Shown here: in pieces, positions 3,957-21,106 of the stretch
How the letters are laid out: each line of letters begins with the position of its first letter
Numbering within the stretch: position 1 is the stretch's first letter
IMG/VR virus record: IMGVR_UViG_3300009152_000188
Location: 1 to 25,334 of that record
Direction: 5' to 3' (one strand)
DNA: 25,334 bases
From: a virus
Notes under the pieces: model-generated
The model's database searches: none
The model's input: only the letters and a program-made list of their open reading frames with translations
Told to the model about the DNA's origin: nothing
Position numbers and translations under genes: made by a program

Positions 3957-4970
3957 TCAATGCACCTTTCCGTTGATAATCATCAGATTAAACAAGGAAA
4001 AATTGCCGTCGGCTTGCATGTCCTGAATGGCAAATCCATGCGTCCAGTTGTTGCTGATTGCGTATTCTGGTGAGAGGTCGCACAGGCAGCCGGTAGTCCA
4101 GCAGCTTGTCACTTTCTTGTCACCCGCGCTGATGATGCCAATAGCATCCGTGTAGTTTGAATGCTGGTGGAAATGTCCGCAAATGCTGGTAGTCCTGAGT
4201 CGGTCATATAACCGCTTGGCCGCACATACCGGATTGGCAAGTCCTTTCGGCAGTTCATGGCCGTGCAGGACTAGTAAGTTGCCGGATTTGATTACCTGTT
4301 TTGACCTGACAACTTTGATTTTCATCTCGTCCAGTTTCAGCAAGGATTCCAAAGTGCATTCTGGCACATCGAGCAGCAACGGCGCGTTCTTTTTTAGGTA
4401 TTGCTCTAATCGGTCGTCGTGATTGCCGAACTTGAAATAGATGTCAGCCTTCGGAAATGCCGAACGAATCATGGTAAGACCTTCCCGGCACGTTTGTAAT
4501 TCGTGTTGAAGATTGCGCCGGCGTGGATCTGGTTCCCACCTTGAAACGCCGTAGTTTTCGATTGTGTCTCCGTTGAGGATGACGGTATCGCATTCTTCTT
4601 TGTGGCCGTGCTCCAGTGCCACCATAAGCGCGGCCTCATCGTGGAACGGAAAGTGGATGTCGGACAGAATCAGTACTTTGCGCTTTCCGGAAATAACGAC
4701 TGGCTCTGTTACTTCCGCAGTCGATTTCGGCATCAGACTTCGCCAAGGCGTTTCGCGAATGAACCTGGCTACTGGAGTTACGCCTTTCCCGACTGCACTT
4801 TTAGTCCCGACGTTACCCTGCGCTCCACGAATTGCCCGAATCATTGTTCTTGCATTTTCCATTGATGGGAAAATTCCAGGATATGACTTGTGCAGTTTTT
4901 TGGCCATCATATGATTTGACACGTTCGGCATTTTGTCCATTTCATCCATTGCAATTTCTTTTTTTGTCAT
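3957..4970 (-). CDS. Calcineurin-like metallophosphoesterase
   Basis: The full set of metallophosphoesterase motifs is present. Numbered from ATG 4970, they are SDIH (103-106), NGD (133-135), GNHD (182-185), HGHE (236-239) and GHFH (265-268), which together bind two metal ions. The first 90 residues form a helical region, including MEMDKMPNVS-like and NARTMIRAIRG segments, that may be a DNA-binding or partner domain. An upstream ATG at 5012 is possible. I prefer 4970 because it forms an ATGA overlap with the HExxH gene, as elsewhere in this phage, giving 337 residues. The substrate is unknown: nucleic acid, nucleotide and protein phosphates are all possible. The gene lies between lysis genes and the repeat array. 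Confidence 0.88.
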   Translation of the reverse strand: MTKKEIAMDEMDKMPNVSNHMMAKKLHKSYPGIFPSMENARTMIRAIRGAQGNVGTKSAVGKGVTPVARFIRETPWRSLMPKSTAEVTEPVVISGKRKVLILSDIHFPFHDEAALMVALEHGHKEECDTVILNGDTIENYGVSRWEPDPRRRNLQHELQTCREGLTMIRSAFPKADIYFKFGNHDDRLEQYLKKNAPLLLDVPECTLESLLKLDEMKIKVVRSKQVIKSGNLLVLHGHELPKGLANPVCAAKRLYDRLRTTSICGHFHQHSNYTDAIGIISAGDKKVTSCWTTGCLCDLSPEYAISNNWTHGFAIQDMQADGNFSLFNLMIINGKVH

Positions 4971-5269
4971 GGCGATCTTAGGTTGATTGTTTGATTGTTG
5001 ATTGCGTCCCAAGCCGGGAAAAAAAGGTTTTTGATTGCCCTAACAATTGGCTCCTCGTCGTAGCGTCTCATGTGTGAAATGCCTGCGATCTCTAGTGCCG
5101 CGTGAATCATTTCGTGGCGTAGCGTAGTCATGCAAACGCATGAATCTGTTACGTTGCTGCTAATGACAATCTGCCGGTCGTCAAAGCGCATCAGTCCGTA
5201 TTCGTGTATGTTTTCACGGACAATCTCAAATCTTAATCCGCCGATGTATATGTGGGTCATTGGCGGCAT
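4967..5269 (-). CDS. Small HExxH zinc metalloprotease-like protein
   Basis: This 100-residue protein has TLRHEMIHAALEIAGI at residues 49 to 64, an HExxH zinc site (H52, E53, H56). The preceding DRQIVISSNV strand, and an acidic DEEPIVRAI helix after it that could supply a third zinc ligand, match small phage peptidases related to SprT or ImmA. It is much shorter than either full-length family. The target is unknown. The gene starts 11 bases after the lysin stop, with ATG at 5260 as an alternative start, and its stop overlaps the phosphoesterase ATG, so the two are probably co-translated. Confidence 0.75.
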   Translation of the reverse strand: MPPMTHIYIGGLRFEIVRENIHEYGLMRFDDRQIVISSNVTDSCVCMTTLRHEMIHAALEIAGISHMRRYDEEPIVRAIKNLFFPAWDAINNQTINLRSP

Positions 5270-6749: not shown

Positions 6750-9125
6750 TTATAGAACTGCTGTTACAATTTTTGCTGACCCGTTATACATAACTTTGCA
6801 TTTTGCCGATCCGCCTGCCGCTACTGCCACGCCGACTACGGGGGAAAGTGCATCAGTAACAACCGCTTCAAGGTAAGTCGTTGACGGAAAAGTGCCGACT
6901 GTAAATGTTCCGTAAATAAAACCCGCGTTGGATTTTGTTGACCCAGCTACCAATAGATTCGTAGCCCCCGCATCAGTGGTCGCCCCGATTGTAACACCGC
7001 CAGATGTGTTGATGCACATGTGGGTGTTTGGTGCCGATGAAGCAAACACCAAACGTCGTGATGCGCCGTAAAAATAACACTGGTCAGGGTATGCTCCAGC
7101 GGCAGTGTTGCCGTAACCAAAACCGCCGCGTTGTGTACCTCCAGAATCTAATAGCTCCATGCTACTATAACCCGTGCTGAGTGTGCTTTTTAGCCCAAAA
7201 AGTCCATTTGTTCCGCCGCCAGCGATAAGTAATGTCGTTGTCGACGATGGTGTGTTAATCTGCGCGATGGTCGGCGTAGTAATCGTCGGCGAAGTAGTTC
7301 CGACTGGCCCTCCCGTGCCACTTGGAGTGCCAGTGAGCAATGTTGCAACTCCCGTTCCTAGTCCGCTGACTCCTGTGCTGATTGGTAGTCCTGTGCAGGA
7401 CGTTAAAGTTCCCCCAGAAGGAGTGCCAAGTGCCGGGGTCGCGAATACCGGAGACGTGGCGGTCAGCACTCCTGTCGTGGAAATTGTCAGTTGATTGCTG
7501 GTGCCGAATCGTGCCGACTCCGCACCGAGAGCCCACTTGTTTGTCATCGTCACGTTTGTTCCTGCGGTCGGTTCGCGGAAAAAAGCGGTGGTGTAATTGG
7601 TATACGTGGTTGAGCTGGTCGCCGCAATGGTATTACCTCCAAACGCATCGGTATAGGCCGCCGCCACTGTGCCGCTTGAGCTGGTATCAGTCAATGTGGC
7701 CGCAACTCCTTTTATTCTCAACCCGCTTGTAGTCCATGCCGCCGCGCTGATATTGCCTGAAAGCGTCAGACGGTCGGTTGTCAGGTCTGTTACGCTTGGT
7801 GATGTTTTTCCAACTGGCCCAGCGGTTCCTGACGACGCTCCTGATAAAAGCGTAGCAACTTCTGTGCCTAGCCCGGTGACTCCGGTGGAGATTGGCAAGC
7901 CTGTGCAGGATGTTAGCGTTCCTGCATTAGGTGTTCCAAGTGCGCCGTTAAACACCACAAATGATCCAGCTGTTCCGACGTTAATTGCTAACGCGTAAAA
8001 TACATTTGTTCCGAGTCCGCTTACTCCTGTGCTGATTGGTAATCCTGTGCAGTTCGTGAGCGTGCCGCTCGATGGCGTGCCGAGTGGTCCGCCGCTGTAA
8101 ATAAGCGTGATTGCCGAGCTTGTCCCGTTCTTAAATTGTGGCGATCCAGATGAATCAGAAAACCATGCGGACCGTCCAGCGGCAATCGTCGGCGTTGTTC
8201 CGTTTTTGGTTATGAAATGCCCAGCCTCGGCTGTGCTAGGATTGCTGAAAAAATGCCCGGTGCTTGTCGTGTTGACGGTTATGCTAATGTTTCCGGCCGT
8301 TGCGCCCCAAGTCAGGATTGCCGTCCCCGCGCTGTTGCGTAAAGATGCCCCTGCGGTTGCGTCAAGCGCGGCGAAGTTGTACGACCTAACAGATGCGCTT
8401 GCGTGCAGAATTTCGATATTGGAGTCAGCAGCATTTGTATAAATTGATGAGTTTGCTGCTGAAGTAAAAATGGGTGAGTTTGCCGCGAGCGTAGCAATAA
8501 AAGAATCCGTTCCTCCGGTCGTAATATAGGAGCTCACTCCGTTGGTGCCAATACCTGCACCCGTTCCTTCGGTTGTGATTGATGCATTATCTCCGGTGGT
8601 GGATATAAAAGCATTTGCCGCCGTGCTCTGGATTGACCCAGTATAAACCATTGTCGCCGCCGTCAAATCATCAAACGCCGCGCCGCCGGATGCGTCACGA
8701 ACGACCACCTTATTAGCAGTTGCCGCGCTTGTAGCGTCTGAAATATCCGCGCTGACAATTGGGGAATAGTATGGCGTATTTGTCCATGCGCCTGAATGGT
8801 AAACCCTGCGTATTGTCGTTCCTGATCGAGTGTAAGCCGTGCCGCCGATTGTTGCTGTGCCGTTGCGTAGAAATACTTCAAATCCTTTCCCTTGAACTGG
8901 CGACGGGTCTGTGACGGTCAGTGTTGCAACTGCGGTGTATTGCTTGTCATTTGCGGCCGTAAACGATGCGCTTTTTACATCCGACGTCCCGCCATCTGCG
9001 CCTGCTGGCCCTGTTGCTCCGACTGCCGCTTCGTTAAGCGTAATCGTGACCGCATCCTCGTTGAGTGTTGCGCTGACAACCACGTCAGGATCGTTTTCAG
9101 CAACGGTAATGGTGATTGTGTCCAT
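6750..9125 (-). CDS. Tail fibre protein with repeats and collagen-like segment
   Basis: This 791-residue protein is low complexity and rich in T, S, G and A. A short collagen-like run (GATGPAGADGG) lies near residue 37. Three copies of a 26-residue repeat (LGTPSSGTLTNCTGLPISTG and variants) are encoded at 8007-8084, 7863-7940 and 7353-7430. The ISTGVSGLGT linkers are typical of fibre proteins in environmental phages. The C-terminus (residues about 745 to 791) is a beta-rich part that I recall from similar fibres. It probably forms a trimer that binds the host surface. No intramolecular chaperone domain was seen. Confidence 0.88.
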   Translation of the reverse strand: MDTITITVAENDPDVVVSATLNEDAVTITLNEAAVGATGPAGADGGTSDVKSASFTAANDKQYTAVATLTVTDPSPVQGKGFEVFLRNGTATIGGTAYTRSGTTIRRVYHSGAWTNTPYYSPIVSADISDATSAATANKVVVRDASGGAAFDDLTAATMVYTGSIQSTAANAFISTTGDNASITTEGTGAGIGTNGVSSYITTGGTDSFIATLAANSPIFTSAANSSIYTNAADSNIEILHASASVRSYNFAALDATAGASLRNSAGTAILTWGATAGNISITVNTTSTGHFFSNPSTAEAGHFITKNGTTPTIAAGRSAWFSDSSGSPQFKNGTSSAITLIYSGGPLGTPSSGTLTNCTGLPISTGVSGLGTNVFYALAINVGTAGSFVVFNGALGTPNAGTLTSCTGLPISTGVTGLGTEVATLLSGASSGTAGPVGKTSPSVTDLTTDRLTLSGNISAAAWTTSGLRIKGVAATLTDTSSSGTVAAAYTDAFGGNTIAATSSTTYTNYTTAFFREPTAGTNVTMTNKWALGAESARFGTSNQLTISTTGVLTATSPVFATPALGTPSGGTLTSCTGLPISTGVSGLGTGVATLLTGTPSGTGGPVGTTSPTITTPTIAQINTPSSTTTLLIAGGGTNGLFGLKSTLSTGYSSMELLDSGGTQRGGFGYGNTAAGAYPDQCYFYGASRRLVFASSAPNTHMCINTSGGVTIGATTDAGATNLLVAGSTKSNAGFIYGTFTVGTFPSTTYLEAVVTDALSPVVGVAVAAGGSAKCKVMYNGSAKIVTAVL
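7353..8084. repeat. Three 78-bp repeats inside the tail fibre gene
   Basis: Copies occur at 7353-7430, 7863-7940 and 8007-8084, each encoding 26 residues with the core TGLPISTGVxGLGT. They are spaced unevenly (433 and 67 bases apart), so they are not a simple tandem array. They could recombine to change fibre length. Confidence 0.85.
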
Positions 9126-15186: not shown

Positions 15187-15860
15187 GATTTTTTGTCTGC
15201 TTCTTTTAGTGCTTTGCGATACCACTTGACGGTTGATTTCAACGCTTTTTCGATTGAATCGGTAGTATGTAAAGTAGATAAAACATACTCGTCACCTACC
15301 CATGGAACTGTTGATACTAGCGTGGATTGTGATTTGAAATCAGATGCCCCAGCTTTGCCATTGCCGAGCTTTGCCCATTTTTGCGCGTATGCCAAAAAGT
15401 TTTTGCCGATGCTGATTCGCGCCGTTCCTTTTTGCTTTTTGGAGATGTCCATTGATGCGCCTAACCATGATCCTTTTGCCATGCCTGCGTTTTTGTTTTT
15501 AATTGACATTGCCTTGTCAAATGTTCTACGTCTTGCGCTTTTCCAGTTTTTGATACGCTTGTTTTTGTATTTTAGATTAGAATTGATCCAAACTATAATT
15601 TCTTCTGCCGTGTTCAAATCTACTTTTACTTTTGGATTATCTAATATTCCAACGAATTTAAGGCCGTCCCTGCGTATGTTTTGTATTTGTTTTTTGCGGG
15701 TTCCTGTTTTTCCGTAAATTTGTGTAGAAAATGCAAGTTCCCGCCCAACTTGAACGCCCCAACGTGTGACAGCTTGTCCTGTGTTGTCGCCAAACATCTT
15801 AGAATATTTTTTTAAAGACGCTTGGAGTTTAGCGTTGTCATTTTGTATTTTTAGCTTCAT
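15183..15860 (-). CDS. HK97 gp10/Z-like neck protein
   Basis: This 225-residue, very basic protein fits the gp10/Z class of head-tail proteins: an N-terminal helix (KLQASLKKYSKMFGDNTGQA), then a segment with WGVQVGRELAFSTQIY, then a Lys/Arg-rich centre (KNKRIKNWKSARRRTFDKAM), then an aromatic part FLAYAQKWAKLGNGK. Its C-terminus is a basic helix (KALKSTVKWYRKALKEADKK). It lies between the joining and terminator genes as Z does in lambda. Role: completes the neck or tail end so that head and tail can join. It is larger than the usual 130 to 190 residues. Confidence 0.62.
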   Translation of the reverse strand: MKLKIQNDNAKLQASLKKYSKMFGDNTGQAVTRWGVQVGRELAFSTQIYGKTGTRKKQIQNIRRDGLKFVGILDNPKVKVDLNTAEEIIVWINSNLKYKNKRIKNWKSARRRTFDKAMSIKNKNAGMAKGSWLGASMDISKKQKGTARISIGKNFLAYAQKWAKLGNGKAGASDFKSQSTLVSTVPWVGDEYVLSTLHTTDSIEKALKSTVKWYRKALKEADKKS

Positions 15861-16189
15861 GCCTTCGTCGTGTCTTTAAGTCTAACGGTTACGAATGACG
15901 CGCCAACGTCAACTGATTCGACTCGAAATGACAAACCACGCGCCGTTGCTAGTTTGCCGACGTAAAAAATACCCGCTTCCGTATATGCTGCCGTCCAATC
16001 GGAAAGTCTAACAACGCAATCAAGATTTGTATCCGTGTCCATGCCGATTTCCGCATATTGCCGCGAATTGGCAACGTAGCTCATTACTGCATTTACCGCC
16101 GTCCCGCCATTTACCGTCAACGGCTCATTCCCAATTACCGCAAATCCGGTTTCAGATGCCGATGACAGAAATGCGGTTAGCTGGCTCAT
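15857..16189 (-). CDS. Head-tail joining protein, FII-like position
   Basis: This 110-residue protein is beta-rich: FAVIGNEPLTVNGGTAVNAV, then DCVVRLSDWTAAYTEAGIFY, then SFRVESVDVGASFVTVRLKD. A five-strand small barrel with a long loop would fit a head-tail stopper (gpFII-like). The position just before Z agrees. It begins 2 bases after the stop of the small glycosyltransferase gene and overlaps the next gene by 4. Named family similarity is uncertain, so this is mostly by synteny and fold pattern. Confidence 0.6.
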   Translation of the reverse strand: MSQLTAFLSSASETGFAVIGNEPLTVNGGTAVNAVMSYVANSRQYAEIGMDTDTNLDCVVRLSDWTAAYTEAGIFYVGKLATARGLSFRVESVDVGASFVTVRLKDTTKA

Positions 16190-16191
16190 GG

Positions 16192-16767
16192 CTATACTCT
16201 AACAGGTTCCGGTGCTGTTGTCAATTCTGCGTCGTGGCGATAAGTGCAAAGAACCTTGTCAATGTGGAATCCTAAGCGGATTTTTTTCCGAGCTTGCCGC
16301 GCCCAGATGATGTCCTCTCCGTAGTTGCATTCCCCAAATTGGCAAGATTTGACAAGTTCTCTTTTCCAGACACAAACGTGCCACGGTGCGCGGAGTGTAA
16401 TTGCGTTAGGTTGAAACGGGTGATCCTGATTGTTCAGTCCGAAAACCACCTTGGAAAACGCTCCGTTGTAATAGCTGTTTTGTTCAAACGTGATCACATC
16501 AGCTTCTGATCGGATAGCGTCGAGGATGGATGCGACGTAATCCGGCTCAATGTCGTCATCGTCGTCAACAAACGCGATGTATTCGCCCCGTGCAATGTCT
16601 AGCAACGCCTGACGTTTTGCGCCAATTGTGCGCGTCCGGTTGTCGGAAAATGCCAGATGCTCGACTGGCAAATCACCGATCTGCTTTGTTATCTTTTCTG
16701 ACAGCTTTGCAAGTTGCTCTTTTCTGCTTGGAATCGTCGGCGTTAGGATGCTGAGTTGGATTTTCAT
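16192..16767 (-). CDS. Short family-2 glycosyltransferase
   Basis: This 191-residue protein starts MKIQLSILTPTIPSRKEQLA, a typical GT-A nucleotide-sugar fold opening. It has SDNRTRTIGAKRQALLDIAR (41-60), a metal-binding acidic run FVDDDDDIEPDYV (67-79) and GEDIIWARQARKK (150-162), the usual late motif of family-2 enzymes. It should transfer a sugar from a nucleotide donor; the acceptor is unknown. It is shorter than many GT2 enzymes but all expected motifs are present. It lies inside the head module, so it could glycosylate virion proteins. Its 5' end overlaps the 58-residue gene by 83 bases. Confidence 0.88.
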   Translation of the reverse strand: MKIQLSILTPTIPSRKEQLAKLSEKITKQIGDLPVEHLAFSDNRTRTIGAKRQALLDIARGEYIAFVDDDDDIEPDYVASILDAIRSEADVITFEQNSYYNGAFSKVVFGLNNQDHPFQPNAITLRAPWHVCVWKRELVKSCQFGECNYGEDIIWARQARKKIRLGFHIDKVLCTYRHDAELTTAPEPVRV

Positions 16768-16849
16768 CTTTTCTGAATATTAGATCGTAGTTGTTTCTGT
16801 ATTTTGCGTGATTGACTGGTCGAGGCGTGTCTCCTTTTCCTGCGCTCAT
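16673..16849 (-). CDS. Small phage protein with GKGDTPRPVN motif
   Basis: I choose ATG at 16849, which overlaps the preceding stop (ATGA), giving MSAGKGDTPRPVNHAKYRNN and then YDLIFRKDENPTQ. From memory, many phages carry a very short protein with this GKGDxPRPVxxxxYRxNYDxIF pattern; its function is unknown. The family usually ends soon after the IF motif. Here the frame continues for about 30 more residues over the glycosyltransferase start, in another frame. The extension is Lys/Arg-rich and may be read-through sequence that the gene gained when the downstream gene was added. Confidence 0.72.
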   Translation of the reverse strand: MSAGKGDTPRPVNHAKYRNNYDLIFRKDENPTQHPNADDSKQKRATCKAVRKDNKADR

Positions 16850-19071
16850 TTTCTTTTCCAATAGTTGTTATGCGTTACAATCTCCCATCCGTTAGCGTCG
16901 GAATGTTCCTTGACTGCTTTTGATACTTCGTGCCATGTCCAATCATGACCTGAAAAAATGCCGTCAGGTTTTACTTTTGAATACCACGCCGCCAGGTCTT
17001 TAACAACTGAACTGTAGTCATGCGCCGCGTCGATCCAAACGCCTGCAAGTGACTTGTCGCCGAACGCGCTTTTTGCTTCTGCGCTGTCTTGGCAAAGTGC
17101 CGTAATCATGCCATCCACCTTTGCCGCTTTGATGTTGGCAAGGAATTGTTTTAAAATGCTGCCGCCGTGTGCCGTTACGATTTCAAGGTGTGCCGGTTGA
17201 TTTTTTTCTCCTTCCCATGTATCAATACAAACTAAATTCACGCCGCGCTTGCCGATGTCTTGCAAGCGTTGTGCAAGGTAAATGATCGACTTGCCTAGCC
17301 AACTTCCGATTTCGACAAACGTATCACCGTCGTTTAGTGTTTTTGCCACGTTGTCGTAGTGGTCTCTGTAGTCTAGCCATCCGTGGATGTCTTCGCTGAC
17401 TGCAATTCCGTCGTTGATTCTTTGCATGATTCCTTGTCCCATGCGATAACGGTAATCCTCGTTTGACCTAGCGTAGATTTCATCCATCGGAGCTTTGCCA
17501 AAAATCGGGTGCAGATGTTCGAAAACAATGTCACACGCTTTGATGACAACCCCGTCGTCGTAGGCTTCTTGTGTAAAAAAATCATCGGAATAGACGCTGA
17601 AAAACTCAGGATGAAACATGTAACCTTGCTGCTGGTATCGCTTTCGCGTTAGGATCGCCATGCAAAGCAAATTATCTGTCCTGTGTCCGTCGCTAATGGC
17701 TAACACCTTTGATTCGTTTGTGTCACCGATAGCGTTAAGAATAATTTCATCCCAGTGCATTGGGGGATTCCAATCGTCGGAAAGCTGGATCAATATTTCA
17801 CCTTGCGCTTTTTCTGCCGCCGCGTTCCATGCAGCTACGCTCCCCGCGCTTCCATTTGTGACGACGTGATTGTGGACTGATAACAACGCGCCGTGCATGT
17901 CGTCGCTGTCCAGTCCGAAAATATGCTCGATAGCGTCTGGATTCTTGGCTTTGTTGAACCACAATCGCCGAGCTTCGACTGCCTGTTTGCATCGTCCGCG
18001 TGTGGCGTGAATAAGCGAGATTTTTGCACCATTGCGGATAAAATGGTTTGTTTCCACCGCGTCGGCTTGGTCGTGAAATCCGTTTGCCCGTAGTGCCATG
18101 CCGTGAAGTTGATATCCAAGATAGCCTGCGTATTTCCTGCGGACGTTCCATGCGCCAGAACCGCCGTCTTGCGCCATCATTGCCGTTGTGATGGCTAGTG
18201 CTTCTTTGTCGCGTCCAAGGCCAATGTAGCACAAGCAAAGTTCCCCGTATGCCTCCTTGCGCGACGGATCGACGGACAACGCTTGCAAGTTCATTTGCAA
18301 TCGAATGTCGATATTGTCGGCCATCTGTCCAGCGGCAATGAAAAGCTCGTATTTTTCTGCCGTGCCGATGTCCTCATCATTGCTTTTCAGTAGTTCACAA
18401 ACAACGTTTGCCGCTTCGTTGATTCTGCCGACAGCGCGGAGAGATTGGAATAGGTGGAATCGTTGCGACACTGTAGGATGTTCGATGCTTTCAAGAATGC
18501 GTAGATTCCGTTCGTCGTTGCGTTCGCGTGTGCCTTCTGGCCGGTGCAAGATTACTGCGCCATTGACGGTTGCCAGCTTTGGTTCCTTGTCGAATTGCAA
18601 ATACTCATGGATCGGCGATGTCCATACGGCACGACCTTTGCGGATGATCCTTTCCCGGTTGACAGTCAATTGATCCTCTGGCACGTGGTAAGCAAACTGG
18701 ATACCGTCAAAATCATGTTGCAGTAAATCAATTGTTGCACGAATGCGCTTGATAGACTCCGGATCAATAACATCGTCGGTGTCTGCCCACATGATAAGAT
18801 CATGCGATGCCGCGTTAAACGCCATTTGCCGTGCCGCCGCAAAGTCATCAACGTGCGGCCAGTTATCGTTTTCTGAATTGTTGATATATGGGTTTGCTAT
18901 TTTTGCTCCCATTTCTGCCGCAATAAACGTAGTCATGTCAGGTTCTTGATTACCTACAGCCCTGACAATCACAATCTCATCAGCCAGCGGCTTGAAGGAT
19001 TCAATAAAACGGGCAATGTAGTTCTCCACATTGCCCACGATGACGCACAAACTTAGTTTTTCATTTTTCAT
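16846..19071 (-). CDS. Large multidomain protein: two glycosyltransferase regions plus methyltransferase
   Basis: This 741-residue protein has four parts. Residues 1 to about 180 are a family-2 glycosyltransferase (LSLCVIVGNVENYIARFIES; metal-binding DTDD at 97-100). Residues about 190 to 330 are helical and TPR-like (RFHLFQSLRAVGRINEAANV; LCYIGLGRDKEALAI). Residues about 350 to 530 are a second glycosyltransferase-like domain (ISLIHATRGRC; DSDD 388-391; LSDDWNPPMHW 430-440). Residues about 575 to 741 are a class I methyltransferase (EIGSWLGKS 587-595, CIDTWEG 615-621, WIDAAHDYSS 679-688, GHDW 708-711). It would act in the cytoplasm on an unknown acceptor, adding and perhaps methylating a glycan. 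Position between capsid and neck genes suggests a virion target. Confidence 0.85.
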   Translation of the reverse strand: MKNEKLSLCVIVGNVENYIARFIESFKPLADEIVIVRAVGNQEPDMTTFIAAEMGAKIANPYINNSENDNWPHVDDFAAARQMAFNAASHDLIMWADTDDVIDPESIKRIRATIDLLQHDFDGIQFAYHVPEDQLTVNRERIIRKGRAVWTSPIHEYLQFDKEPKLATVNGAVILHRPEGTRERNDERNLRILESIEHPTVSQRFHLFQSLRAVGRINEAANVVCELLKSNDEDIGTAEKYELFIAAGQMADNIDIRLQMNLQALSVDPSRKEAYGELCLCYIGLGRDKEALAITTAMMAQDGGSGAWNVRRKYAGYLGYQLHGMALRANGFHDQADAVETNHFIRNGAKISLIHATRGRCKQAVEARRLWFNKAKNPDAIEHIFGLDSDDMHGALLSVHNHVVTNGSAGSVAAWNAAAEKAQGEILIQLSDDWNPPMHWDEIILNAIGDTNESKVLAISDGHRTDNLLCMAILTRKRYQQQGYMFHPEFFSVYSDDFFTQEAYDDGVVIKACDIVFEHLHPIFGKAPMDEIYARSNEDYRYRMGQGIMQRINDGIAVSEDIHGWLDYRDHYDNVAKTLNDGDTFVEIGSWLGKSIIYLAQRLQDIGKRGVNLVCIDTWEGEKNQPAHLEIVTAHGGSILKQFLANIKAAKVDGMITALCQDSAEAKSAFGDKSLAGVWIDAAHDYSSVVKDLAAWYSKVKPDGIFSGHDWTWHEVSKAVKEHSDANGWEIVTHNNYWKRK

Positions 19072-19093
19072 TTTTCGATTTTCTAAAGATTAC

Positions 19094-19119
19094 GGGAGCC
19101 GCCAGTTACGACGGCCCCC
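19094..19119 (-). terminator. GC-rich hairpin after the capsid gene
   Basis: On the minus strand GGGGGCCG (19119 to 19112) pairs with CGGCTCCC (19101 to 19094), an 8-bp stem with one G-T pair and a 10-base loop, 25 bases after the capsid stop. The downstream sequence is GTAATCTTTAG, without a strong T-run. It may be a partial terminator, or an RNA stability element that raises capsid mRNA relative to the genes after it. Confidence 0.5.
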
Positions 19120-19143
19120 GATGCTATGAACACAAACAAGAAA

Positions 19144-20040
19144 TCAGGTCGTCGGAGTCGTAAACACTTTCAAAGCGTTTGTCACCGCAACGGAATAGCC
19201 GTAAAGCATGTGCATGTTGGCAAAGTAAGTTCCGGATGCGCGCGAATAATGGCGAGTGTAGAGAGCAGTCAATCCGCTTTCCGGATCGGTCATTTCCTCG
19301 ATTGCTTCAAAATCAGCGTTAGGCAGATATTGACCAAGTGCGCGGGAAGCAAATGCAATACCGTCTTGACCGCAGGCAAAGCCAACAATCGAAGCGGAAT
19401 TAGCGGGAATGATGTCCGATGCGTAGACGTTCATTCCAAACAGTCGGCCAAGATCGCCTTCCTTGATTGCGGAAGCGTCGCCCCGGTTGAAGTAATTCAC
19501 CAGGTTGGTGTCACCAAGCAATGCGCCTTCGATAACCATGTTACCCACAAACGAGTATTCGCCACGTGCGCCAGCCTGTTTCAGCACTTTACGAGCTTCA
19601 ATCAACTGCGTTTTGGTATAATTTGCCGATGCGGTTGTGATAATCGCGCTGCCAAAATTGGAAGTTGTCAGCAAACTCCAGATGTCAGCAAGAACACTTG
19701 TTCCCATTGACTTGCCAAGTTGATAAGCCCACTTGTCCCATCGCCCTGCGTTGCTGGATTCGGCAAGTTGTTGATGCGTTAGGCTGATCGGGGTAATCTT
19801 GCGCTTGTCAAGAGTGACGGTGATCGCGGAAAGCAATCCTCCGGTTTGTTCCATGACAGTCGTGGACTGCGTGAAAGTTGTAGTCGTTGCGTTGCCGAAA
19901 AGTGGGACAACAACGGCTGATCCTTGCGTGTTCACATCCGAGCTGATGTCGGTTGCAAATGCGCGGATAGGTGTGAGAATTTCGACAAGTTGCTGAAAAG
20001 CGGTTTGTGCAAAAATGGTGTCATTGAATACAGTAGCCAT
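19144..20040 (-). CDS. Major capsid protein
   Basis: This 298-residue protein begins MATVFNDTIFAQTAFQQLVE and carries TDISSDVNTQGSAVVVPLFG, typical of capsid proteins in which an N-terminal arm precedes beta strands. KRKITPISLTHQQLAESSN, YSFVGNMVIEGALLGD and GRLFGMNVYASDIIP (the axial-domain strand with xxxVYxSD) follow. These patterns fit the HK97 fold. Its location right after the protease-scaffold gene is the E position. Size matches the usual 290 to 340 residues. The N-terminus has no long delta-domain, consistent with scaffolding by the separate protease-linked coiled coil. No decoration gene is found between protease and capsid. Confidence 0.87.
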   Translation of the reverse strand: MATVFNDTIFAQTAFQQLVEILTPIRAFATDISSDVNTQGSAVVVPLFGNATTTTFTQSTTVMEQTGGLLSAITVTLDKRKITPISLTHQQLAESSNAGRWDKWAYQLGKSMGTSVLADIWSLLTTSNFGSAIITTASANYTKTQLIEARKVLKQAGARGEYSFVGNMVIEGALLGDTNLVNYFNRGDASAIKEGDLGRLFGMNVYASDIIPANSASIVGFACGQDGIAFASRALGQYLPNADFEAIEEMTDPESGLTALYTRHYSRASGTYFANMHMLYGYSVAVTNALKVFTTPTT

Positions 20041-20068
20041 GATGATTAGTTAGTTGATTGTTAAAAAG

Positions 20069-21106
20069 TTATTTGTTGCGTTGAGCTTTGATTTCTTTCT
20101 TGTGCTTGTTGAAATACGCGGTGCGTTCAGCAGGAGAAAGGTTTTTCATGTGTTCAAGGTGGTCAATCGGGCGCGAGCCGTTTTCGATGTCAAGAGGTTT
20201 GGTGATGCCAGCGGTTGCGGCAAGTGCCACGGCCTGCGCTGGAACGGACGTTTCCAGTTCTGTCACCTTGGCTTTAAGAGTTTCAATTTCGCTATTTGCG
20301 TATTTTACAGCGTCAAGCGAGGTAGCAAGCGAGTTTTGAGCAGTCGTCAAATCTTGTTTGACGGTTGCCAGTTCAGTAATTGCGTTTCGCGCTTCAAGCA
20401 ATTCAGCTTGATACGTGCCAAGCTCAGTTTCGTGAGTGGCAATTACATTTTCAAGTGCGGCGATTTTATCAATCGACTCTTGCGCGGATGGATTCGTGAG
20501 GCGGTCAAGCAAGCTCATGGATGAAACCCTAACAGAATTCGTTAGATTGTCAAGAATCCTGTTTGCAAACCCTAACGAAACGCATTTATCAGCGTTCATC
20601 CATGTTTCTTCCATCATCATTGATCGCACTTCATCGGTAGTTTTACCAGTGCGCGATGCGTAAATTCCAGCTATTTCGGTGCTCAATTCTTCGCACATTG
20701 CAGCCGCTTTTGATAGTTCCTTTGCGTTTCCGTGCAGTCCCATTGAAACATCATGGATCATCATGCGTCCGGTAGCTTGCATGATAACCTCGTTACACGC
20801 CATGCCAATCACGCTTGCCATTGACGCGGCAAGGCTAACGGTTGCGGTAACATATACGCCTTTTGCGCGTAGTTGCATGGTTTTAGAGTGAATCAAGTAG
20901 CCATCGAACACGCTGCCGCCTGGAGAATGGATGTCAATGTTCAGCGTATCGACTGCCGTCTCTGCGCTGTTTGTAAATCGTCCTTCCTCGTCAACAATGT
21001 TAAAAGCGTAGTCAATTTCACTCATCAATTGCCGACGCGAGTATTCGTCAATCTGTTCGTCCAGCGTCAGCGATGCCGTTTTGTTTTCAATCGTTAGGAA
21101 TTTCAT
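20069..21106 (-). CDS. Prohead protease fused to scaffold
   Basis: This 345-residue protein has an N-terminal ClpP/S49-like protease (residues about 1 to 185): IDIHSPGGSVFDGYLIH (57-73), a nucleophile Ser95 in SLAASMASVIGMA, and His118 in MMIHD. An acidic residue near 173 (TWMNADKCVSLGFAN) may complete the site. Residues about 205 to 290 form a coiled coil (IAALENVIATHETELG and EIETLKAKVTELE), followed by LSPAERTAYFNKHKK at the end. The protease-scaffold fusion matches lambda C, in which Nu3 scaffold is coded by the 3' part. An in-frame ATG at 20518 could give a separate 150-residue scaffold. It cleaves head proteins during maturation. The start overlaps the portal gene by 20 bases. Confidence 0.86.
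   Translation of the reverse strand: MKFLTIENKTASLTLDEQIDEYSRRQLMSEIDYAFNIVDEEGRFTNSAETAVDTLNIDIHSPGGSVFDGYLIHSKTMQLRAKGVYVTATVSLAASMASVIGMACNEVIMQATGRMMIHDVSMGLHGNAKELSKAAAMCEELSTEIAGIYASRTGKTTDEVRSMMMEETWMNADKCVSLGFANRILDNLTNSVRVSSMSLLDRLTNPSAQESIDKIAALENVIATHETELGTYQAELLEARNAITELATVKQDLTTAQNSLATSLDAVKYANSEIETLKAKVTELETSVPAQAVALAATAGITKPLDIENGSRPIDHLEHMKNLSPAERTAYFNKHKKEIKAQRNK

Follow-up and report, generated by a model that had tools for sequence, protein, structure and literature searches.

A glycosyltransferase–methyltransferase cassette co-inherited with the major capsid protein is a putative capsid-glycosylation module in environmental phages

The 25,334-nucleotide stretch analyzed here (the window; IMG/VR virus record IMGVR_UViG_3300009152_000188), from a freshwater phage, carries a cassette downstream of its major capsid protein (MCP) gene that probably represents a capsid-glycosylation module, to which we give a probability of about 0.74. 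Its first enzyme, a glycosyltransferase domain (GT1) joined to a TPR-like helical region, would prime the MCP, the other glycosyltransferases (GTs) would extend the chain, and a methyltransferase would modify the glycan. Sequence comparisons with relatives show the order of the domains, the conservation of putative catalytic motifs, the unchanging position of the cassette and its co-inheritance with the MCP. The features discussed below, all on the minus strand, are as follows.

20069..21106, minus strand: head maturation protease, ClpP/SppA-type, 345 aa (Pfam CLP_protease 1.7e-22; phrog_94 1.5e-48)
~20072-20191, minus strand: protease C-terminal ~40 aa, scaffold-type in appearance, weakly tracking MCP class
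19144..20040, minus strand: MCP, 298 aa, proposed glycan acceptor (phrog_283 major head protein, 7.9e-21)
19093..19120, minus strand: RNA hairpin between the MCP gene and the cassette, 12-bp stem and weak T tail
16846..19071, minus strand: GT1–TPR–GT2–O-methyltransferase fusion, 741 aa (Pfam, PHROG, AlphaFold, Foldseek)
18517..19071, minus strand: GT1 domain, residues 1-185, GT-A fold, proposed protein-priming glycosyltransferase
18034..18516, minus strand: TPR-like helical region, residues 186-346, proposed MCP-recognition part
17413..18033, minus strand: second GT-A domain, residues 347-553 (phrog_14945 3.2e-17)
16849..17394, minus strand: class I methyltransferase domain, residues 560-741, sugar O-methyltransferase type (Methyltransf_24 8.9e-20)
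16673..16849, minus strand: 58-aa ORF, starting MSAGKGDTPRPVNHAKYRNNYDLIF, kept in some relatives
16192..16767, minus strand: short GT2, 191 aa, proposed chain-extending glycosyltransferase (Glycos_transf_2 2.3e-7; phrog_14775 1.3e-31)
15857..16189, minus strand: 110-aa gene 3’ of the cassette, outside the MCP-linked block
17752..20191, minus strand: capsid-plus-enzyme allele block (protease tail, MCP, GT1, TPR, first part of the second GT domain), with boundaries inferred from relatives

The three cassette ORFs, encoding the 741-aa fusion, the 58-aa product and the 191-aa GT2 in that order downstream of the MCP gene, agree with the earlier note on this DNA, and Pfam and PHROG matches bear out the GT/GT/methyltransferase composition of the large protein. 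The fusion matches Glycos_transf_2 (1e-11) in addition to Methyltransf_24, and its PHROG glycosyltransferase matches cover residues 5-300 and 349-538; the Glycos_transf_2 scores of the fusion and the short GT2 (45.5 and 31.3 bits) both exceed the Pfam gathering score of 23.3. The 58-aa ORF overlaps both of its neighbors: its ATG shares bases with the TGA of the fusion gene (ATGA), and its 3’ end lies within the short GT2 gene. It has no Pfam or PHROG match and nothing significant in phage records; tblastn relatives are found in many loci, between the fusion gene (GTMT) and short GT2s. Upstream, Pfam identifies the ClpP-type protease, a lambda-family portal (4.3e-24) and a GpA terminase (1.4e-22), and the phage also encodes a 791-aa repeat-rich putative fibre. 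Scans of the window for Rfam families and tRNA genes gave no matches. Recent foreign acquisition was rejected since the G+C content of the cassette (48.3%) matches that of the window (48.2%). The 110-aa gene 3’ of the cassette, previously called FII-like, has no Pfam or PHROG match, and neither that assignment nor a strict lambda gene order around the cassette could be established. A literal replacement of lambda FI was likewise rejected: the downstream gene lacks an FII signature, and cassette-free relatives (e.g., P8625) have a small gene in that place.

The order of a GT-A domain followed by TPR-like helices, as in GmaR and SunS, is found by AlphaFold, Foldseek and a PDB sequence search. 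The fusion is modeled by AlphaFold at pLDDT 86.4 and pTM 0.72, whereas the MCP model is poor (pLDDT 54), such that surface exposure is not readable from it. GT1 contains an invariant D97-T-D-D100 (27-row alignment A2), a conserved acidic metal-binding motif; its best PDB sequence match is GmaR (3.5e-17), SunS scores 6.5e-10, and with the following helices it has ThuS/SunS as top Foldseek matches (6e-12 to 2e-11). The TPR region, an addition to what had been described earlier, is helical in the AlphaFold model and matches TPR_19 at 0.0016, under the Pfam cut-off. GT1-TPR thus resembles, in sequence and predicted structure, the glycosyltransferases of flagellin (GmaR) and of peptides (SunS/ThuS). 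Invariant acidic motifs of this metal-binding kind are also present in the second GT-A domain (S431-D-D433, 27 sequences) and in the short GT2 (D68-D71, 18 sequences). The modeled methyltransferase domain probably acts on sugar: its best Foldseek matches include MeT1 (1.7e-9), MycF (3.3e-8), SpnH (5.3e-8) and CalS11, and sugar methyltransferases fill ranks 7-23 except for two chondroitin polymerase matches to the GT part.

The arrangement is highly conserved. Among distinct IMG/VR MCP sequences with at least 700 bp of downstream DNA, the fusion gene follows the MCP gene in 111/111, within 150 nt in 95 of them, and the short GT2 is also present in 76/77 relatives with 3.5 kb of downstream DNA. 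The cassette-bearing MCPs form one clade, with cassette-free relatives falling outside it; the cassette has a single origin, and no sampled locus has lost it. The arrangement recurs in another lineage, whose MCP belongs to an unrelated family (phrog_1005): GT1-TPR-GT2 follows the MCP gene at 64/64 loci, 57 of them within 120 nt. The earlier note had called for a search of related phages for the cassette at this place, and would have counted these genes at unrelated sites in close relatives, without effect on the virion, against its reading; all 111 and all 64 adjoin an MCP gene, and no displaced copies were found. Because the arrangement is kept in more than 100 distinct relatives, chance and a stray or local moron were rejected as explanations. 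Bacterial genomes mined for the whole cassette yielded mostly stand-alone Verrucomicrobiota enzymes that resemble the second GT domain only, one of which (L091) lies among ordinary chromosomal genes. Only two bacterial-genome matches, L087 and L088, show the arrangement, and these are probably binned phage contigs. The hosts of the cassette-bearing phages are probably Verrucomicrobiota.

Comparisons of relatives provide the main evidence linking the first enzyme to the capsid. MCP identity correlates with that of GT1 (0.82) and TPR (r 0.80), as against 0.26 for the protease, 0.26 for the short GT2, 0.23 for the methyltransferase and 0.13 for the portal; the bootstrap range of the Spearman difference, fusion gene minus protease, is 0.22-0.59. 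MCP class changes twice on the MCP tree and four times each on the GT1 and TPR trees, compared to 11-17 changes on the portal (17), protease (16; shuffled 19.3), methyltransferase, short GT2 (15) and downstream-gene trees, the latter including the 110-aa head gene (15; shuffled 16.5). The second GT domain is divided, with four changes for residues 347-440 and 15 for residues 441-553, placing the 3’ boundary of the linked block near fusion residue 440. Natural swaps (L018/L065 versus L187/L198; L119/L193; L193/L217; L045/L176) involve phages that are near-identical at the flanks (portal 95-98%, next head gene 94-96%) and differ in one block of MCP and GT1/TPR; L065 and L187 share 85% nucleotide identity across 3.8 kb downstream, while their MCP and GT1-TPR differ. 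Protease identity drops to 30-44% in the last sliding window in 5/5 swap pairs, and the protease C-terminal 40 aa predict MCP class with an AUC of 0.69, against 0.46 for the preceding stretch. The coupling is not total, as the extra changes on the GT1 and TPR trees indicate, and a few pairs with MCP identity of 76-78% have TPR identity of 45-54%. Five Ser/Thr positions (T3, T55, T135, S217 and T287) are conserved only in cassette-bearing MCPs; as a route to the acceptor residue this comparison was set aside, since Ser/Thr show no excess relative to other residue classes and ancestry confounds it.

The scheme that we infer, from acceptor, sugar type and linkage to the order of steps and the benefit, would run as follows. 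GT1 with its TPR region would recognize the MCP, whether as a free subunit or already built into the procapsid, and place the first sugar on it, with Ser or Thr as the probable site. Further sugars would come from the second GT domain and the short GT2, and the methyltransferase domain would O-methylate the growing or finished glycan. The outcome would be a virion coat of short oligosaccharides, often methylated, which may shield the particle, alter adsorption or diffusion, or add stability. Since each GT1-TPR would have to fit its own MCP, the pair would pass from phage to phage as a single allele, and the extending and methylating parts would be exchanged freely because these see sugar, not protein. 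The MCP is named as the acceptor because its class is locked to GT1-TPR and not to the portal, protease or downstream head and tail genes, and it can be put forward with fair confidence as the putative modified virion protein. As to the proposal that virion proteins are glycosylated or methylated, modification of a virion protein is well supported and gains a candidate acceptor, and protein methylation appears less likely than sugar methylation because the best structure matches are sugar O-methyltransferases and the methyltransferase domain has been replaced or lost independently of the MCP in relatives.

Expression of the cassette with the capsid, as suggested previously, is plausible, although the hairpin between the two may attenuate it. 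This hairpin, also new relative to the earlier note, lies in a 75-nt intergenic region with an MFE of -24.3 kcal/mol (z -3.17 versus dinucleotide shuffles). It was flagged by a terminator scan whose number of hits in the region is not above chance, and a stem of at least 6 bp is present in 42/42 intergenic regions tested. A role as attenuator or mRNA stabilizer is possible from these predictions.

Some linkage of MCP and GT1 is expected in any case because the genes adjoin, and recombination might simply be favored at the protease-MCP junction and in the second half of the second GT domain, which is conserved, so that all that lies between would travel together with no functional match between capsid and enzyme. 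The 3’ edge of the block does lie where identity peaks (residues ~450-550, 84-96% in swap pairs), so homologous sequence may help to place breakpoints, and a conserved island also occurs in GT1 (86% nucleotide identity over 236 bp in L065/L187). Yet this island, close to the MCP gene, rarely splits MCP from TPR: 0/820 pairs combine TPR identity above 58% with MCP identity below 50%. The protease, which flanks the MCP on the opposite side, parts from it almost randomly, and its tail partly follows the MCP, as expected of an MCP-contacting part. Neutral linkage also leaves the retention of the cassette by all sampled descendants unexplained, and we consider it unlikely. That the enzymes glycosylate another virion protein, such as the major tail protein or fibres, with MCP adjacency incidental, is a more doubtful proposition still: in mycobacteriophages the tail tube is reported to be glycosylated in addition to the capsid (PMC12619734) and the putative fibre offers a candidate, but in the swaps the head and tail genes further downstream remain similar when MCP and GT1-TPR change jointly, and the downstream genes tested are coupled to neither MCP nor GT1 in correlations or tree label counts.

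Modification of a host surface glycan had been offered as another role; such a role, in serotype conversion or superinfection exclusion, now seems very unlikely. Phage glycosyltransferases frequently play this part in lysogens (general knowledge; PMC12619734); however, no membrane-spanning segment is found in the fusion or the short GT2 (maximum 19-residue hydropathy 1.06 and 0.62), and no flippase or lipid-carrier partner was noticed in the window, such that the membrane glycosyltransferase and flippase of serotype-conversion (gtr) systems are both missing by hydropathy and window annotation. The cassette is placed in the late head operon, and it is absent from 12/12 MCP neighborhoods of Verrucomicrobiota prophages, though lysogens would gain most from such a function, which would also leave the MCP lock unexplained. 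Hypermodification of phage DNA is extremely improbable. The PHROG label of the last domain is ‘DNA methyltransferase’ (phrog_2675), and DNA-glycosylating phage enzymes exist, as cited in PMC12619734; against this, a search limited to PF00303 revealed no thymidylate synthase/hydroxymethylase-family gene in eight records of 31-37 kb, possibly fragments, the Foldseek matches are protein and sugar enzymes, and DNA modification would not bind the enzyme to the capsid class.

The capsid-glycosylation reading has partial precedents. SunS and ThuS, the best structural matches of GT1 and its helices, act on a peptide encoded beside them, and SunS is prophage-derived; they differ in modifying cysteines of a bacteriocin, a small-peptide acceptor, and in having no methyltransferase. 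Lambda gpFI, a small assembly factor, is encoded at the equivalent place, after the MCP gene and before the next head gene, but does not resemble the cassette, with its glycosyltransferase and methyltransferase domains in products of 741, 58 and 191 aa. The Listeria flagellin O-GlcNAc transferase GmaR has a GT domain of ~180 residues and, after it, a TPR region proposed to recognize its protein substrate, a subunit of a large assembly; unlike the fusion, it is a cellular enzyme and antirepressor, for which a second GT or methyltransferase domain is not described (PMC9638930). In the Omegavirus LittleE (a Mycobacterium phage), compared by genes alone, glycosyltransferase genes lie between the major head protein and the head-tail connector, an isolate exception to the premise that such genes are not found in this slot. 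The short GT2 is 37.4% identical to LittleE gp15 (E 2e-19), but the LittleE genes are separate and include a kinase, and none matches the GT1-TPR-GT2 profile. Virion glycosylation is reported for the mycobacteriophages Che8 and Rita (Freeman et al. 2023, as cited in PMC11256854 and PMC12619734), with glycans covalently attached to the capsid protein in Che8 (PMC11256854 citing Freeman 2023). Both Che8 and the present phages encode GT2-type glycosyltransferases, and Che8 gp108 is a homologue of the short GT2 (34.5% identity, E 1e-15); a glycan on the MCP is reported for Che8 and proposed here. Che8 genes 108-110 are separate and located at the genome end, whereas here a GT-TPR-GT-methyltransferase fusion adjoins the MCP gene, and the hosts are probably Verrucomicrobiota, not Actinobacteria. 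The position of the Che8 short-GT2 homologue away from its MCP gene counts against a capsid-module reading. Evolution of the first enzyme with the capsid class, found here, is not known as a feature of Che8, and therefore supports a system that works like the Che8 type, not membership in it.

Virion glycosylation by a phage’s own enzymes has been reported in a few mycobacteriophages, and the cassette would be a variant of this known process, with the co-inheritance of MCP and first enzyme as the main new result. The cassette is shared by a large phage group from environmental metagenomes, whose capsid-linked glycosyltransferase goes back to one gain and persists in all sampled descendants, and a second lineage with an unrelated capsid has the same arrangement. 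The natural swaps point, ahead of bench work, to the acceptor (MCP) and the recognizing part (GT1-TPR), and a few recombinant proteins would test this. At a little under even odds, these phages may have a capsid ‘serotype’ system, in which matched alleles of MCP and priming GT are swapped between near-identical genomes while the outer glycan, through the second transferase, the short GT2 and the methyltransferase (including a swap to another methyltransferase family), is varied independently, generating combinatorial particle-surface diversity under natural selection in lakes.

The 25,334-base IMG/VR virus record that makes up the window carries a minus-strand head block in the order small terminase, large terminase, portal, ClpP-type protease, major capsid protein (MCP), a 741-residue gene, a 58-residue open reading frame (ORF) and a 191-residue gene, followed by more head and tail genes. 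Pfam and PHROG matches, together with a confident AlphaFold model (pLDDT 86, pTM 0.72), give the 741-residue protein the domain order GT-A (GT1), TPR-like helices, second GT-A and class I methyltransferase. These results, together with putatively catalytic acidic motifs that are invariant across alignments of 27 and 18 relatives, confirm the cassette of three genes that an earlier note had placed after the MCP gene; its label FII for the gene following the cassette was not upheld. Start and stop codons overlap at the junctions within the cassette, and the 58-residue ORF matches no known family. Features of the window are as follows.

19093-19120, minus strand: strong RNA hairpin between the MCP gene and the cassette (z -3.2)
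16846-19071, minus strand: 741-residue fusion gene
16673-16849, minus strand: 58-residue ORF that overlaps the genes on either side; conserved start SAGKGDTPRPVN..Y.NNYDLIF
16192-16767, minus strand: 191-residue short GT2
6750-9125, minus strand: putative fibre of 791 residues with repeats of the kind GTPSSGTLTNCTGLPISTGVSGLGT and no Pfam or PHROG match
168-953 and 3957-5012, minus strand, at the opposite end from the cassette: RecT-family annealing protein and calcineurin-like phosphoesterase

IMG/VR searches that took the MCP and the enzymes as queries yielded more than 200 loci, and identical MCP sequences were removed before loci with the cassette were counted. The earlier note had proposed looking for the same cassette at this place in related phages; in these peptide-pattern searches, which under-sample very distant relatives and draw mostly on fragmentary records, the fusion gene lies downstream of all 111 distinct MCP sequences with at least 700 bp downstream, at a distance of no more than 150 nt in 95. 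Where at least 3.5 kb follows the MCP gene, the short GT2 is present in 76 of 77 loci and the methyltransferase domain in 66. An MCP-independent search using the short GT2 finds an MCP upstream in 73/74 loci, the remaining one being truncated by the contig end. In distant relatives the fusion gene is more conserved than the MCP (~50% versus ~39% identity). Insertions of 0.8–1.5 kb separate the two genes in three loci (L200:2282-3701, L203:2165-3701 and L070:2858-3697), and a 681 bp stretch past another MCP (L141:6892-7572), which ends before any cassette, holds a gene whose product is basic and highly repetitive (repeats such as REACRKWDEANPEKR). We infer the label 'freshwater' from metagenomic sources and lake-derived MAG titles.

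Across 41 loci, dereplicated at the analyst's choice, MCP pair identity correlates with that of GT1 (0.82) and TPR (0.80), more weakly with that of the second GT domain (0.58), and scarcely with that of the protease (0.26), short GT2 (0.26), methyltransferase (0.23) or portal (0.13). With three MCP classes, set at analyst-chosen thresholds (0.5–0.55 identity), the minimum number of class changes per tree is 2 for the MCP itself and 4 each for GT1, TPR and fusion residues 347-440; it is 15 for residues 441-553, 11 for the methyltransferase, 15 for the short GT2, 15 and 13 for the two genes after the cassette, 16 for the protease and 17 for the portal, shuffled labels giving 15.5–19.5. Loci L018 and L187 are alike in portal (98% in the part compared), protease (89%) and the gene after the cassette (96%), and divergent in MCP (39%), GT1 (48%) and TPR (36%), with identity regained near fusion residue 450. 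Comparable swaps occur in the pairs L119/L193, L193/L217 and L045/L176, and none of 820 pairs combines MCP identity below 50% with TPR identity above 58%. Some linkage is expected between neighbouring genes anyway, and the 3' edge of the linked block falls on a highly conserved segment where recombination might be favoured; what chiefly speaks against a neutral origin of the pattern is asymmetry, as protease and MCP are separated almost at random whereas MCP and GT1-TPR hardly ever are. The last 40 protease residues, which are scaffold-tail-like, do follow MCP class (AUC 0.69, versus 0.46 just before them) and provide a partial internal control. The MCP and the first enzyme, GT1-TPR, behave as one allele.

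The same arrangement recurs with an unrelated capsid protein. L087, a contig binned as Betaproteobacteria, encodes a GT1-TPR-GT2 gene (35% identical) directly after an MCP that belongs to another family, phrog_1005; here the methyltransferase has a gene of its own. Among 80 relatives, the phrog_1005 MCP precedes the enzyme in 64 of 64 loci with enough upstream DNA, within 120 nt in 57, and a third contig, L088, agrees.

L261-L340, L087 and L088: members of this second lineage, in the order MCP, GT1-TPR-GT2

In Mycobacterium phage LittleE, glycosyltransferase genes, one of them for a short GT2 homologue, lie between those for the major head protein and the head-tail connector.

Homologous MCPs without the cassette are found in Verrucomicrobia phage P8625 and 33 related loci. 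In the MCP tree, the MCPs with a cassette group together (support 95/89) and those without it fall outside, a pattern of one gain and zero losses among the sampled loci. Relatives of the MCP were found in 22 of 388 genomes of Verrucomicrobiota versus 1 of 398 genomes of the L087 phylum (titled Betaproteobacteria), which points to Verrucomicrobiota as hosts. Prophage-like MCP relatives in Verrucomicrobiota genomes (L341-L352; 25–34% identity) are without the cassette, which was found beside prophage MCPs in 0 of 12 neighbourhoods checked. Verrucomicrobiota chromosomes (L089-L096) also encode enzymes 43–48% identical to just the second GT domain, which may have come from hosts or gone to them.

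All 42 intergenic regions tested have a stem of 6 bp or more at the place equivalent to the window's hairpin. The hairpin may reduce the amount of enzyme made per capsid protein or make the capsid message more stable; both roles are tentative, because only 8/42 have a clear T run and a terminator scan over the whole region was not above chance.

The nearest relatives of GT1 with TPR are GmaR, an enzyme that transfers N-acetylglucosamine to flagellin, and the peptide glycosyltransferases SunS and ThuS; the GmaR TPR has been proposed as the part that recognises the substrate protein (PMC9638930). Sugar O-methyltransferases are the best matches of the methyltransferase domain. The short GT2 has a homologue in phage Che8, gp108, and covalently attached glycans have been reported on the Che8 capsid (PMC11256854). 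These enzyme relatives and the MCP lock suggest that, most likely, GT1-TPR would prime the MCP, the other transferases would extend the glycan and the methyltransferase would modify the sugar, a chemistry predicted only. The methyltransferase is replaced by another family, Methyltransf_23-like with a match just below the Pfam cut-off, in L016 (L016:5634-7916) and L085, and is absent from 11 of 77 loci (L050, at L050:8998-10683, and ten others), in keeping with an outer decoration that varies. Free recombination of the outer parts fits this model, because these would see sugar, not protein.
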